DNA from: Ignatzschineria sp. RMDPL8A
GTDB lineage: Bacteria > Pseudomonadota > Gammaproteobacteria > Cardiobacteriales > Wohlfahrtiimonadaceae
Length of the DNA stretch: 64,000 nt
NCBI RefSeq assembly: GCF_029815055.1
Contig: NZ_JAPPWA010000002.1
Location: 1-64,000, forward strand
Direction of reading: 5' to 3'
Part shown: positions 51,108-63,437 of the stretch, piece by piece
Layout: each line of letters starts with the position of its first letter
How positions within the stretch are numbered: position 1 is the stretch's first letter
The notes under the pieces: model-generated
What the model was told of the DNA's origin: nothing
Database searches by the model: none
The model's input: only the letters and a program-made list of their open reading frames with translations
Made by a program: the position numbers and the translations under genes

Positions 51108-51519
51108 TTACTCCTTGCTACCGGCATCGGCAGCCGCCATCCCATCTGAATCCCGCTGATTGGCATATTGTTCATTTAACGATAATAACAAGCAGATTCA
51201 AATGGTAATCGTTTACAATTAAGTAATTAATTATACAAAAATAATCCAAAATGTCATCTAATTGTCATGATTTTATGATATAGAGCGTAAAAATCGTCGG
51301 GCATAAGGCTTATCTACCCATTATCCTTGGATTATCCATTCGTTATTCACAAGGTTATCCACATTCTAAAGTTGCCGATCCCCCTAAAATCGGCTACTAT
51401 TTGATCATCTTCAATCTGCATAAAAAGCGTCCATCTGCCGATTAAATTTGCCCAATGCCTTTTTAATCTGTATAATGCTACGCGTTTTGTGTGTAACAAC
51501 TTTATGGATAGAGGAAACG
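51108..51519. other. Intergenic region before the pyr leader
   Basis: 412 bp. AT-rich. Contains DnaA-type boxes TTATTCACA (51343-51351) and TTATCCACA (51355-51363). The pyr promoter should lie in 51450-51505, with TATAAT at 51471-51476 as its likely -10 box; TATTTGATCA-rich sequence occurs further upstream. Confidence 0.45.
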
Positions 51520-51597
51520 ATGCAAAAAATGATCATCACCTGCCCTCAAGGCACTGCTTTTCAAGCAGTTCTTTCTCTATTTATTAGATTTTTTTGA
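51520..51597 (+). CDS. pyr operon leader peptide
   Basis: 25 codons with a good GAGGA ribosome site 4-5 nt ahead of ATG. It begins MQKMIITC and ends LFIRFF before TGA. It spans the pause hairpin and a T-rich tract, and its stop codon touches the terminator stem. The peptide itself is probably only a device for transcription-translation coupling. Confidence 0.75.
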   Translation: MQKMIITCPQGTAFQAVLSLFIRFF

Positions 51598-51625
51598 AAA
51601 CCGACAATGAAGTCGGTTTTTTTTT
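51553..51625 (+). promoter_or_regulatory. UTP-sensing attenuator of pyrFE
   Basis: Pause hairpin ACTGCTT/AAGCAGT (51553-51569), then a T-rich tract (51569-51595) inside the leader gene, then the terminator AAAACCGAC/GTCGGTTTT with nine T (51597-51625). This is the E. coli pyrBI arrangement: when UTP is low, polymerase pauses at the U tract, the ribosome catches up to the stop codon and blocks the terminator. No PyrR binding-loop sequence is visible. Confidence 0.75.
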
Positions 51626-51663: not shown

Positions 51664-52380
51664 ATGACGCGCCCAACAAAACCCATTATCGCCCTAGACT
51701 TCCCGAACTATCTCGAGACCAAAGCCTTTTTAGAATTGATGCCGGCCGATGAAAAACTCTATATCAAAATTGGTATGGAACTTTTCTATAACGAAGGCCC
51801 GATGTTAGTTGAAACCTTAAAGGCTCGCGGATACGAAGTATTCCTCGATTTAAAACTCTACGATATTCCCAATACGGTTAAAAGCGCGATGATTGGCCTT
51901 GCAAAACTTGGCGTTGATATGGTGAATGTTCACGCAGCCGGCGGAAAACGCATGATGGAAGCGGCGCTCGAAGGCCTTGATATCGGCACTCGTGCGGGGA
52001 AAACGCGCCCGCATCTTATCTCAATCACCCAGCTCACCTCGATGACGGAAGCGGAGATGCAGCGGGAGCAAGGCGTGCAAATGTCACTCCTTGAATCGGT
52101 CATTAACTACAGTCAGCTCACTCATGAAGCGGGACTTGATGGGGTGGTCTGTTCGGCTCAAGAAGCGCAAAAAGTAAAAGAAAATACTCATGGAGAATTT
52201 CTCTGCGTCACCCCGGGGATTCGTCTTGCCTCCGATGCGGCCGACGATCAGCGCCGTATTATGACCCCGCATCAAGCGCGCCTCAATGGCTCAAGTTATA
52301 TCGTGGTCGGTCGCTCGATTACGCAAGCGACGGATCCTCTACAAGCGTATTACACTGTTAAATCTGAATGGGAAAAATAA
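51664..52380 (+). CDS. pyrF: Orotidine-5'-phosphate decarboxylase
   Basis: 238 residues. Decarboxylates OMP to [28 protein letters not shown] with catalytic lysines, [15 protein letters not shown] and TPGIR are intact. The overall wording ([44 protein letters not shown]) is nearer to Bacillus PyrF than to E. coli PyrF. Overlap-like spacing (2 bp) with pyrE. Confidence 0.95.
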
Positions 52381-52382
52381 TT

Positions 52383-53015
52383 ATGAACGTTGCAAAAGAA
52401 GTGGCAAAACGCCTTATCTCAATCGATGCGGTTTCACTCTCACCGGATGCGCCTTTTACTTGGGCATCGGGCATCAAATCACCCATCTACTGCGATAACC
52501 GCTTAATTGTGAGTTATCCTGCGGTACGTAAATTTATCTCAAAACGTTTAATTGAGATGATCGAACGCGAATTTCCTGAAGTTGAGGTGATCGCGGGAAC
52601 GGCAACCGCCGGGATTCCGCACGCTTCATGGGTCTCAGCGGTTCTTGAAAAACCGATGGTCTATGTGCGCAGCTCACCGAAAAAACATGGCCGCGGCAAC
52701 ATGATCGAAGGCATTGTGGAAAAAGGTAAAAAAGTGGTGATCGTTGAAGATTTAATCTCAACGGGCGGCAGCTCCATCACCTGCGCAAAAGCTTTAGAAG
52801 AAGCAGGATGCGAGGTTATTGGCGTTGCGGCGATCTTCTCTTATGAGCTCCCCGCGGCAACGAAAAACTTTGCCGAACAAGGCAATTTAAAACATGTGAC
52901 GTTAAGCAACTACCCCGCACTTTTAGAGGTGGCGCTTGACGAAAAAATGATTACCGAAGCACAGCTCGGCGTCATTACCGAATGGAATAAAGATCCTGAG
53001 AACTGGGGCAAATAG
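52383..53015 (+). CDS. pyrE: Orotate phosphoribosyltransferase
   Basis: 210 residues. Converts orotate and PRPP to OMP. APFTWASGIKSPIYCDNRL, IAGTATAGIPHA, VYVRSSPKKHGRGNMIEG and the PRPP motif VVIVEDLISTGGSS are of Bacillus type, unlike E. coli PyrE. ATG at 52383 is used; an ATG at 52368 overlapping pyrF is also open. Followed 3 nt later by an MFS gene. Confidence 0.94.
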   Translation: MNVAKEVAKRLISIDAVSLSPDAPFTWASGIKSPIYCDNRLIVSYPAVRKFISKRLIEMIEREFPEVEVIAGTATAGIPHASWVSAVLEKPMVYVRSSPKKHGRGNMIEGIVEKGKKVVIVEDLISTGGSSITCAKALEEAGCEVIGVAAIFSYELPAATKNFAEQGNLKHVTLSNYPALLEVALDEKMITEAQLGVITEWNKDPENWGK

Positions 53016-53018
53016 AGC

Positions 53019-54230
53019 ATGAGTGCGGAAAAAATTATCATTGAAAAAGGCGATAAGAAAACCCTTCTCGCCTCCACGATGGGCTATGCAATGGATGGCC
53101 TCGACATTATGATCCTCGGCTTTGCGATGGTGCTGATTCGAAATGAATTTGGCCTATCCCACGCTGAGGGCGGTATGATTCAGACCTTAACCCTAATCGG
53201 GACGGTGCTTGGCGGCATTATCTTTGGTATGCTCGCCGATAAATATGGTCGCGTTCGCGTCTTTAACTGGACCATTTTGCTCTTCTCGCTCTTTACAGGG
53301 CTTGCGGCCTTTGCCCCGAATGCTGAAAGTTTTGTAGTGTTGCGCTTTATTGCAGGGCTTGGACTGGGTGGCGAATTTGGGATCGGAATGACACTGGTGG
53401 CGGAAACTTGGCCGGCGAAAAAACGCTCACGAGCCACTTCAGTTGTGGCGATTGGATTCCAGATCGGTATTGTCCTTGCGGCGCTGACAAATCTCTTTGT
53501 CTCCCCTCATTTTGGCTGGCGCGGAATGTTCTTAGTGGGCGCACTTCCCGCTCTACTTGTGTGGTGGGTTCGCCATAATCTTGATGAGCCGGAGATGTGG
53601 AAAGCGGTCAAACGTCAAAACAAAAACAAGATCTCCATCAAACCGCTCTTTAAAGATCGCCGTACCACGATTACAACACTTGGCCTCATTATCGCAACGA
53701 GTGTGCAAAACTTTGGCTTCCACGGCATTATGGTGTGGATGCCATCGGTCCTTCTTGAAGAGCATGGCCTTAAACTCTCGGACATCACCTTCTGGACCTT
53801 TATTACCGCTGCCGGCATGATCGTCGGAACGCTGATTTTCGGACAAGCGGCAGACCGATATGGTCGTCGCCCTACCTATATCTTCTTCCTGTTAGTAAGC
53901 GCGGGCTTTGTCTGGATCTACTTCCAACAAACAAACCTTGCGTTAATTATCGGGCTTGCAGCGCTATTAGGATTCTTTGTCAACGGCATGATGGGCGGCT
54001 ATGGTGCGCTCTTATCGGAGCATTATCCCACTGAGGTTCGCTCCTCGGCACAAAACATTATCTTTAATGTGGGCCGTGGTGTAGCAGGATTTGCTCCCTT
54101 TATCATCGGGTCACTCTCGAAAGATCATTCGTTAAGCGTAGCGCTTGGCGCAATCTCAGGGGTCTATCTTCTCTCAGCCGCTGCCTTTGTCTTTATGATT
54201 CCAGAAACCAAAGGTAAAGCACTCGAATAA
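53019..54230 (+). CDS. MFS transporter in the pyr operon
   Basis: 403 residues, 12 membrane helices. Major facilitator motifs GMLADKYGRVR (after TM2) and FGQAADRYGRRP (after TM8); resembles the aromatic-acid:H+ symporter branch. Placement 3 bp behind pyrE suggests import of orotate or dihydroorotate, aromatic-like carboxylates that PyrE could use directly. That substrate is inferred from position only. Confidence 0.85.
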   Translation: MSAEKIIIEKGDKKTLLASTMGYAMDGLDIMILGFAMVLIRNEFGLSHAEGGMIQTLTLIGTVLGGIIFGMLADKYGRVRVFNWTILLFSLFTGLAAFAPNAESFVVLRFIAGLGLGGEFGIGMTLVAETWPAKKRSRATSVVAIGFQIGIVLAALTNLFVSPHFGWRGMFLVGALPALLVWWVRHNLDEPEMWKAVKRQNKNKISIKPLFKDRRTTITTLGLIIATSVQNFGFHGIMVWMPSVLLEEHGLKLSDITFWTFITAAGMIVGTLIFGQAADRYGRRPTYIFFLLVSAGFVWIYFQQTNLALIIGLAALLGFFVNGMMGGYGALLSEHYPTEVRSSAQNIIFNVGRGVAGFAPFIIGSLSKDHSLSVALGAISGVYLLSAAAFVFMIPETKGKALE

Positions 54231-54290: not shown

Positions 54291-54315
54291 GCCTCTCCTC
54301 GGAGAGGCTTTTTTA
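54291..54315 (+). terminator. pyr operon terminator
   Basis: GCCTCTCC/GGAGAGGC 8-bp stem with a 2-nt spacer, then TTTTTT. A second hairpin, AAAGTTGT/ACAACTTT, precedes it at 54256-54281. Confidence 0.9.
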
Positions 54316-54966
54316 TGCTTCAAAATCAAGGATATCAATCCATTCACTTAAGTTTCAGCACGCCATTAAAATCTCCCATGGCGCACTTCAAAATGATTGA
54401 TCCATTATCCCACTCTTATCCTCAAGTTATCAAATGGCTTATCCACAAGGTTATCCACATTTACCATTCAAACGAGCATAAACACAAAAAAGTTATCCCC
54501 GAAGTTATCCACAACCCTTTCCCATGAAATTGTGGATATCCCCATCTTTTATCCAAAAAGTGTCCGTTAACGGATAACTATGTCTCCCTTTAAAAACACA
54601 ATGTTTTTTTAAACACCTTTTTAGGTCATTTTAGATTTACATGTGTGCTTCAATTACGATCAAAAACTTATTCACTGATACGCTTTTTCCACATCGTGCA
54701 TCACAACAAAAAAGATTTTATTCCCCGTTTGGGTCACTCAATTTTTAAAATGCGATTAAATAGACCCATTGAATGATCGAGTTTCACTCGCGTCCGCAAA
54801 TAGATGCGGATGACTGTATGGACTTATCCAGAGGTTATCTCGTAATTATCCAAAGAATTATAAAAGGGTTATTCACAATGTTATCCACAAGCCTACAAAA
54901 GTCTTCAAATTAGTGCGGTGGCTGTTGAGTGGAGTTCTTCTAAACATATTTGAAATTGACTAAAAA

Positions 54967-54982
54967 TGTTTCATGTGAAACC
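54967..54982 (+). other. parS-like site
   Basis: TGTTTCATGTGAAACC, identical to 23178-23193 and two changes from the general ParB site. Confidence 0.5.
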
Positions 54983-55163
54983 GTAACATTAATGGATTTT
55001 TAATGTGTTAGTGGAAGTGTAGGATTAAAGACTGAAAAAGTTCCCCACAACTTATCCACATTACGCCAATATAAAAAGCGTCTTTTGTATACTTTTTATT
55101 CAAAAGATGCGTTGTTTATTAGAGATTATGAAGAAGAGACCTGTGTAACCGTAAAAAATGTGA

Positions 55164-60836: not shown

Positions 60837-61215
60837 TTTTATAACTCCTCTATGAGTATTTGTTTAAGCTGACCTTTTTTATATTATCATGTCTTTATAA
60901 ATAATAAATGATGATGAGCGGCTGAAGTTATCCACAGGTTTAGGCCAAAAACTGTGAATAACGCCCCTTTCGAGCTTTTTTTGATGTGGATAACATTTTC
61001 CATAACTCTGCCAAGCATCCGTTGATAAAAAACAGGGTATTTTTCTCCACACGTTATCCACAGGTTATGAAGAGGCCTCTCCGCTGAGTTTTTAATATTT
61101 CAATCAAATCAATAGGTTAGTTTTAGCGATAAAAAAGCCAAAATGAAATGAATTTCACTTTGGCTCTCTTTTGTTGATGATGCGTTACTTAAGTGACGCA
61201 AACGGTTAGAACAGG
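60837..61215. other. Intergenic DnaA-box cluster
   Basis: 379 bp. TTATCCACA at 60928-60936 and 61054-61062, TGTGGATAA at 60985-60993, TGTGAATAA at 60953-60961, i.e. four boxes in 135 bp. Ends with the brnQ terminator. Confidence 0.6.
61130..61165 (-). terminator. brnQ terminator
   Basis: AGCCAAA/TTTGGCT stem with further AT pairing, T6 on the minus strand. Confidence 0.8.
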
Positions 61216-62550: not shown

Positions 62551-63437
62551 ACTAATTCTCTTTGAAATCCAAAAAAATTGACTTACGAAAAGCGCACTTT
62601 TGTTGTTATGAAAAATGCGGCGCTTTATGTCAAATAAGCGGTGAGCTTATTGAGGGTGAGTGTATTAAACGTGGGGTCTGTTTATTTAAAAATCGTGAAG
62701 GTTTTGCCTTTGGGATTTATCACTCAGATACATAATCGATAATAAAGCCCTTTTGGGGCACGTTTATAATTATCAATAAATTTCATTCTAGGCAAATTTT
62801 TAAAATAAAACTAGGTTAAAACGGAATATATTGAAATTTTTCTTGTATATATCTTTATCTCTTTATATTAATTTGATGATGATGAGTTTTGTGAGTTATC
62901 CACAGGTTGTGCACAGAATCCCATAAAAATGCTCCTTTTCGACGTTTTTTGCTGTGAATAAGATTGCTGAAAAACGATATTACAAAATATTGATAAGTCG
63001 AGCCCTGATTTCTCCACAAGTTATCCACAGTTTTAAGCCGTTTTTATCCCCAAAGTTGTGCATAACGGTTAATCGATTGAATGTTAAATTAAAAAATTCC
63101 CTAAAAAAGCCCCGAAAATGTGAAAACTGGGGCGAAAATTTGGGTTAAGCGGGTCCCAATGGCAAAGTTATCCACAGAAAATGCTTAAAAAACGTGGAAA
63201 AGATGTGGATAAGTTGTGGAAAATTTTTTTGATGAAGTGTGTGGAAAAATCAATAAAAAATAAAAAACGCGCTGCGCGCGTTCGTTAACAGAATCAAGAT
63301 GATTAAAAAATAGACAGTTGAGATAAAAAATGAAAACGAAAAAGCTCGCGCGATGCGCGAGCTTTTTAATCTCGATCGGAAAGAACGCTTTCTTTTTAAA
63401 GGATTATCCGGCGCTCTCTTCGTTGATAAATCGTGGT
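62551..63437. other. Candidate replication origin or DnaA-binding region
   Basis: Nearly 900 bp without a credible gene. A very AT-rich stretch at 62780-62890 (TTTTTCTTGTATATATCTTT and neighbours) is followed by TTATCCACA at 62896-62904, TGTGAATAA at 62953-62961, TTATCCACA at 63021-63029 and 63168-63176 and TGTGGATAA at 63204-63212. AT-rich unwinding element plus spaced DnaA boxes is the plan of a bacterial oriC. Neighbours (brnQ, rdgB) are not the usual origin genes, so this is a hypothesis. Confidence 0.4.
63256..63367 (-). terminator. Tandem terminators of rdgB
   Basis: GCTCGCGC/GCGCGAGC stem (63344-63362) flanked by A and T runs, and AACGCGC/GCGCGTT (63266-63282) with T run on minus. Confidence 0.8.

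Follow-up and report, generated by a model that had tools for sequence, protein, structure and literature searches.

The pyrF-pyrE locus and its leader

The window, the whole 64,000-nt stretch of DNA analysed, comprises positions 1-64000 of a contig in a 2.18-Mb gammaproteobacterial genome that is 99% complete (G000). This genome falls in the same family as Ignatzschineria, is treated here as a separate genus, and is not that of a Firmicute. On its forward strand the window carries an operon in which pyrF, encoding a Bacilli-type OMP decarboxylase (51664..52380; NCBIfam NF001273/TIGR01740 and phylogenetic tree), is followed by pyrE, encoding a Bacilli-type orotate phosphoribosyltransferase (52383..53015; TIGR00336, above the cut-off). 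The gene of an MFS transporter begins 3 nt past pyrE (53019..54230), and a role as orotate (or dihydroorotate) importer is proposed for it from a TIGR00895 match below the cut-off and the context of its homologues. A terminator scan placed the operon terminator at 54291..54308.

Upstream of pyrF, on the same strand, a consensus scan found a promoter (TTGCCC-17-TATAAT, 51448..51476, scoring 10/12), at the position occupied by the TAGAAT/TAAAAT -10 boxes in the Ignatzschineria leaders. The predicted transcription start is a T-run, GTTTTG (51484..51489), 7 nt past the -10 box. Direct reading of the sequence gives a Shine-Dalgarno (SD)-like AGAGGAA (51510-51516) in front of a 25-codon leader ORF (51520..51597, ATG at 51520, TGA at 51595-51597) with the putative peptide MQKMIITCPQGTAFQAVLSLFIRFF. 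Folding places an intrinsic terminator, the candidate attenuator, at 51596..51625, with a 10-bp stem (arms 51596-51605/51612-51621), a 6-nt loop, and nine T at 51617-51625; TGA and stem share two bases, and the ATG of pyrF (51664) lies 38 nt past the terminator. The 25-codon frame with its ribosome site, and the TGA touching a terminator stem with nine T, were all found where a preliminary description of this DNA had placed them, and the position of pyrF 38 bp past the T-rich terminator was borne out base for base. The search against Rfam at the locus returned no family match.

DnaA-box-like sites (TTATCCACA/TTATTCACA) flank the operon on both sides (51343-51363 and 54439-54513), and similar sites precede pyrF in several Ignatzschineria leaders. 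The window contains 33 such sites (TTWTNCACA) vs 5.4 expected, eight of them within ~350 bp near 63 kb (62896-63248) and more at 60928-61062 and 54439-55060. The minimum of the cumulative GC skew, also near 63 kb, coincides with the cluster, which makes this a probable oriC region.

Origin of pyrF and pyrE

The PyrF of the window is 82-83% identical to Ignatzschineria PyrF and 64% identical to that of Listeria; against the other Gammaproteobacteria, two further genera of its family among them, identity does not exceed about 50%. In the IQ-TREE phylogeny of PyrF, the window and Ignatzschineria form a clade (100/98) nested in Bacilli (99/98), and the remaining genera of the family fall with Gammaproteobacteria. 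The topology indicates that the PyrF of the window lineage and Ignatzschineria was acquired from Bacilli. The tree was built for PyrF, and the origin of PyrE was judged by identity and gene order: PyrE is 47-58% identical to Bacilli PyrE (58% to that of Listeria), where pyrF and pyrE are likewise neighbours. Identity thus suggests a Bacilli origin for PyrE as well, and, together with gene order, a joint transfer of the pair.

Bacilli pyr operons carry PyrR RNA sites, and a PyrR-dependent attenuation could have been retained with the genes. The PyrR element RF00515, which detected all its positive controls (B. subtilis and two others), had no match in the window genome or in 30 relatives; PyrR control was rejected on this basis, and we give it a negligible probability. 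The locus shares with the PyrR-regulated operons of Bacilli the source of its pyrF-pyrE pair, and the PyrR RNA element is missing from it. The preliminary description had remarked that pyr genes of Firmicutes use PyrR and that no site was visible here: the search agrees on the missing site and the genes do come from Bacilli, although they now reside in a gammaproteobacterium, in which no PyrR sites were found.

Pyrimidine pathway of the host and the MFS transporter

No recognisable aspartate carbamoyltransferase (pyrB) was found in the window genome. It has two carbamoyltransferase matches, one of them ornithine carbamoyltransferase and the second with a score in that range; the nine Ignatzschineria genomes have carbamoyltransferase scores in that sub-cut-off range only, and all the other family and order members searched pass the aspartate carbamoyltransferase cut-off. 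Dihydroorotase (pyrC) of either type was likewise not found in the window genome; Ignatzschineria lack the dimeric type, and in the genomes searched for the other type the best matches remain below the cut-off. A quinone-type PyrD (class 2) and Upp are present in the window genome. The early part of pyrimidine synthesis appears to have been lost from this lineage, which carries the candidate switch on pyrF-pyrE.

The MFS protein is nearest to the aromatic acid:H+ symport (AAHS) family, with a TIGR00895 score below the family cut-off. All the Ignatzschineria genomes examined have it on the contig that carries pyrFE, 2-12 kb downstream of pyrF-pyrE and with its own start region, so that only in the window genus does it stand third in the operon; it is absent from six g2 genomes and from the order mates searched. 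The sole other homologue (48% identity) belongs to G002, of genus g3, where it heads an operon (L203 683-6123) that continues with a PyrK-like gene, a class 1 PyrD and a carbamoylase-family amidase, and is followed by a helix-turn-helix gene. This gene set looks like one for orotate breakdown, which makes the import of orotate the likeliest role of the transporter. Our literature search on orotate transport by AAHS proteins found nothing relevant, and the MFS protein would represent a family of candidate orotate importers about whose biology little is known.

In all nine Ignatzschineria genomes, a conserved gene for a 119-133-aa membrane protein (L159-L167) lies right after pyrE, in the place taken by the MFS gene in the window.

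Conservation of the leader ORF, stop codon, and terminator

We compared 11 leaders: those of the nine Ignatzschineria genomes with this pyrF, that of the window genome, and that of a near-identical MAG of the window lineage. Each contains a promoter-like -10 box and an SD, then an ORF of 15-25 codons and a terminator 25-38 nt before pyrF, with CCGAC-loop-GTCGG and the T run invariant throughout. The end of the stop codon lies 0-9 nt before the CCGAC core in 9/11 leaders and 10 nt inside it in the other two. The leader peptides diverge freely, with no obvious shared sequence, while the position of the ORF and its stop are kept. The conservation of the leader frame and of the stop-terminator overlap in relatives, on which the preliminary description had made its reading depend, was found for both.

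Between close species, the substitutions in the first 75 nt past the start codon all fall within the first ~33 nt of the ORF (8/8 for G003/G007, 14/14 for G014/G015, 3/3 for G005/G013). The next 40 nt have no substitutions in the three pairs, and none fall in the anti-SD arm described below, the stop codon or the terminator. The peptide diverges and the 3' half of the ORF, its stop and the terminator are fixed; therefore, selection acts on the RNA of these parts, not on the peptide.

An SD-led ORF near the stem is present in all seven leaders subjected to a shuffle test (ATG with SD, at least 10 codons, end within 15 nt of the stem). The chance of such an ORF was 2.2% in shuffled window leaders and 0.6-5.1% for each of the six others. 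For the window sequence, the fold of leader plus terminator reached z = -3.0, which shrank to z = -1.4 once the terminator was left out, so the fold of one sequence alone is weak evidence.

The comparison strongly supports a translated-leader attenuator ahead of pyrF-pyrE. A plainer explanation is that a short leader RNA, or a small peptide gene, ends here in an intrinsic terminator that just lowers pyrF-pyrE expression, with no regulated readthrough. The promoter-to-terminator unit of ~140 nt could act alone, and an untranslated RNA would form the terminator and the long helix described below too. We regard this explanation as quite unlikely, since it does not account for diverging peptides whose ORFs all end at -10 to +9 nt from the stem, for the chance values of 0.6-5.1% in the shuffles, or for the T-run start.

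A helix between the leader Shine-Dalgarno and the end of the ORF

In the minimum-energy folds of 9/11 leaders, the SD is paired to a pyrimidine tract where the ORF ends, just before the terminator. In the window, the 5' arm, which includes the SD (51504..51516), forms 13 bp with the 3' arm (51572..51584; p = 0.006 vs shuffles). Fold, helix score and covariation identify this 3' arm, a pyrimidine tract, as an anti-SD; given the T content of the region (below), it is also the probable UTP-sensitive stretch. The helix score exceeded the shuffles in all seven tested leaders having the helix (p 0.0005-0.009).

Whole-leader MAFFT alignments lost the register of both arms, and therefore no covariance model was built and the arms were aligned separately; 96% of the cells of the arm alignment are paired. 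With seven distinct rows of related sequences and arms set around the SD by hand, 6/11 base pairs show changes on both sides, vs 1-3 in slid versions, and 2/500 shuffles reach 6. The covariation score was 0.455 vs 0.308 in shuffles. G005 and G013 lack the SD helix (helix score p 0.30 and 1.0) and have instead an 8-bp helix, ATGAATGA/TCATTCAT, the 5' arm of which lies upstream of the SD.

The conserved structure is thus, with the exception of one sublineage, the longer helix joining the leader SD to the end of the ORF, and not the 7-bp hairpin at 51553..51569 that the preliminary description had taken as the pause hairpin. This hairpin is a perfect 7-bp one and is nested within the long helix, but it is absent from 9/9 Ignatzschineria leaders and found only in the two genomes of the window genus, and was rejected as a conserved element. 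Alone it is unremarkable, with six terminator-like sites in the stretch vs 4.8 expected; it is incidental.

A short leader peptide before a terminator, with Phe at 4/25 residues in the window, is also what an amino-acid attenuator of the trp/his type would have. No residue is enriched or clustered across the leaders, and the conserved helix and the terminator stem do not overlap, so there is no antiterminator alternative. Lacking both codon bias and antiterminator, this explanation was rejected, and we hold it to be very improbable.

Folding of known pyrBI leaders, taken from plasmid records, brought the SD region onto the pause tract in E. coli, Klebsiella, Proteus and Photobacterium; the helix score was not individually significant in 4/5 leaders (it was so in Proteus only, p 0.03, and in Aeromonas not at all). 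A class-wide and order-wide search for an E. coli-like pyrBI found it in one genome only. To our knowledge, and within a limited literature search, an SD helix in pyrBI-type leaders has not been described before.

Predicted start sites and the candidate signal

The predicted starts of all leaders fit a run of at least three T after a purine, a feature of UTP-dependent reiterative initiation: AATTT or AATTTT(T) stands at the expected start in 9/9 Ignatzschineria leaders, and the window reads GTTTTG. The pyrBI starts are AATTTG in E. coli, Proteus and Photobacterium and GTTTTG, read as TATAAT-N7-GTTTTG, in Klebsiella and Aeromonas. UTP-dependent reiterative transcription is established at the pyrBI, codBA, upp and carAB P1 starts, and E. 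coli carAB P1 starts GUUUGC (PMC6245113). Reiterative initiation may likewise take place at the start of the leaders studied here.

Over the 33 nt that precede the stem, T content is 58% in the window, 42-45% in most leaders, and 27-30% in G005, G013 and G011, in which a purely U-sensing tract is therefore weak. UTP as the signal is supported only indirectly, by the T-run starts, the pyrimidine-rich end of the ORF, and the target genes.

The range of U content (27-58%), and the standing of the SD helix as the structural element with the best support, would also suit a translation-coupled attenuator in which this helix is an initiation gate and the cue is not UTP but ribosome supply or growth rate, or CTP via C-rich tracts. 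We consider such a cue rather unlikely: the target genes produce UMP, the T-run starts match UTP-regulated promoters, and the nearest analogue, pyrBI, responds to UTP.

Proposed mechanism

On the whole, we find it fairly probable that transcription of a pyrF-pyrE(-MFS) orotate-salvage operon is attenuated in this leader by a ribosome-coupled, probably UTP-sensitive mechanism of the pyrBI/pyrE kind. RNA polymerase would start at the T-run promoter and transcribe the SD and the short ORF, then the pyrimidine-rich stretch, and then the terminator. With ample UTP, a fast polymerase would complete the pyrimidine stretch, which would pair with the leader SD and close ribosome entry; with no ribosome behind the polymerase, the terminator would fold and transcription would end. 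At low UTP, the polymerase would slow in the U-requiring stretch before the SD is closed, and a ribosome could load and reach the stop codon touching, or inside, the terminator stem, where its footprint would block terminator folding and allow the expression of pyrF, pyrE and the transporter gene. In line with this, termination falls from ~90% to <10% when a ribosome occupies a stop codon situated a few nt ahead of the terminator, with no effect at >27 nt (PMC4824070), and the pyrL terminator is suppressed in vitro by low UTP, pausing, and a coupled ribosome (PMC10135430).

Under this mechanism, pyrF-pyrE and the likely orotate importer are probably switched on only at low pyrimidine nucleotides, and the operon would convert imported orotate to UMP in bacteria that appear to lack aspartate carbamoyltransferase and dihydroorotase. 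A nucleotide-sensing attenuator would have been fitted to genes that are under protein (PyrR) control in the donor group.

More generally, we advance, as a tentative idea that is somewhat less probable than not to hold, that the pyrimidine tract of UTP-sensing attenuators plays a double part, slowing the polymerase at low UTP and shutting the leader SD, so that the outcome depends on whether a ribosome loads before the tract is complete. The SD/anti-SD helix would be a simple, mutable answer to how the leader ribosome avoids late loading in pyrBI-type attenuation. If the tract does have this dual role, the mechanism was reinvented or re-used here on Bacilli-derived genes for orotate salvage; and if the similar, weaker pyrBI folds of E. 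coli, Klebsiella, Proteus and Photobacterium are real, it is a general and overlooked part of the textbook mechanism.

Comparison with known pyrimidine attenuators

The literature search on pyrF attenuation and on Ignatzschineria pyrimidine biology found nothing relevant. With the pyrBI (pyrL) leader of E. coli and its relatives, the locus has in common a leader ORF that would be translated, a stretch before the terminator that is U-rich at least in the window, a T-run start, and pyrimidine genes as targets. Conversely, the genes here are pyrF-pyrE; the leader has 15-25 codons vs 44; its stop is at or in the stem, whereas the pyrBI leader ORF continues through the terminator and stops beyond it; and the SD helix is longer and backed by covariation.

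In E. coli rph-pyrE, the stop codon precedes the terminator, again that of a pyr gene, by a few nt. This stop-before-terminator layout is shared with the locus, although the leader there is the whole gene rph and here a dedicated short ORF. The preliminary description, which had called the element a pyrBI-like attenuator, was right about its kind, but the stop position is closer to the layout of E. coli pyrE than to that of pyrBI.

In E. coli pyrC, the SD is closed by pairing with a pyrimidine stretch; there, the closure acts on the SD of pyrC itself, via start-site choice, and here it would act on the leader ORF of the attenuator. Nucleotide control of pyrC translation is described in PMC4491880. 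The leader before pyrF-pyrE is best read as a variant of the pyrBI/pyrE-type control on other genes.

In the sister genus g2, pyrB lies after an apparent gltA (L104-L109) and pyrE after another gene (L061, L063-L067). Both have a terminator within ~20 nt of the upstream stop codon, and may be rph-pyrE-like attenuators.
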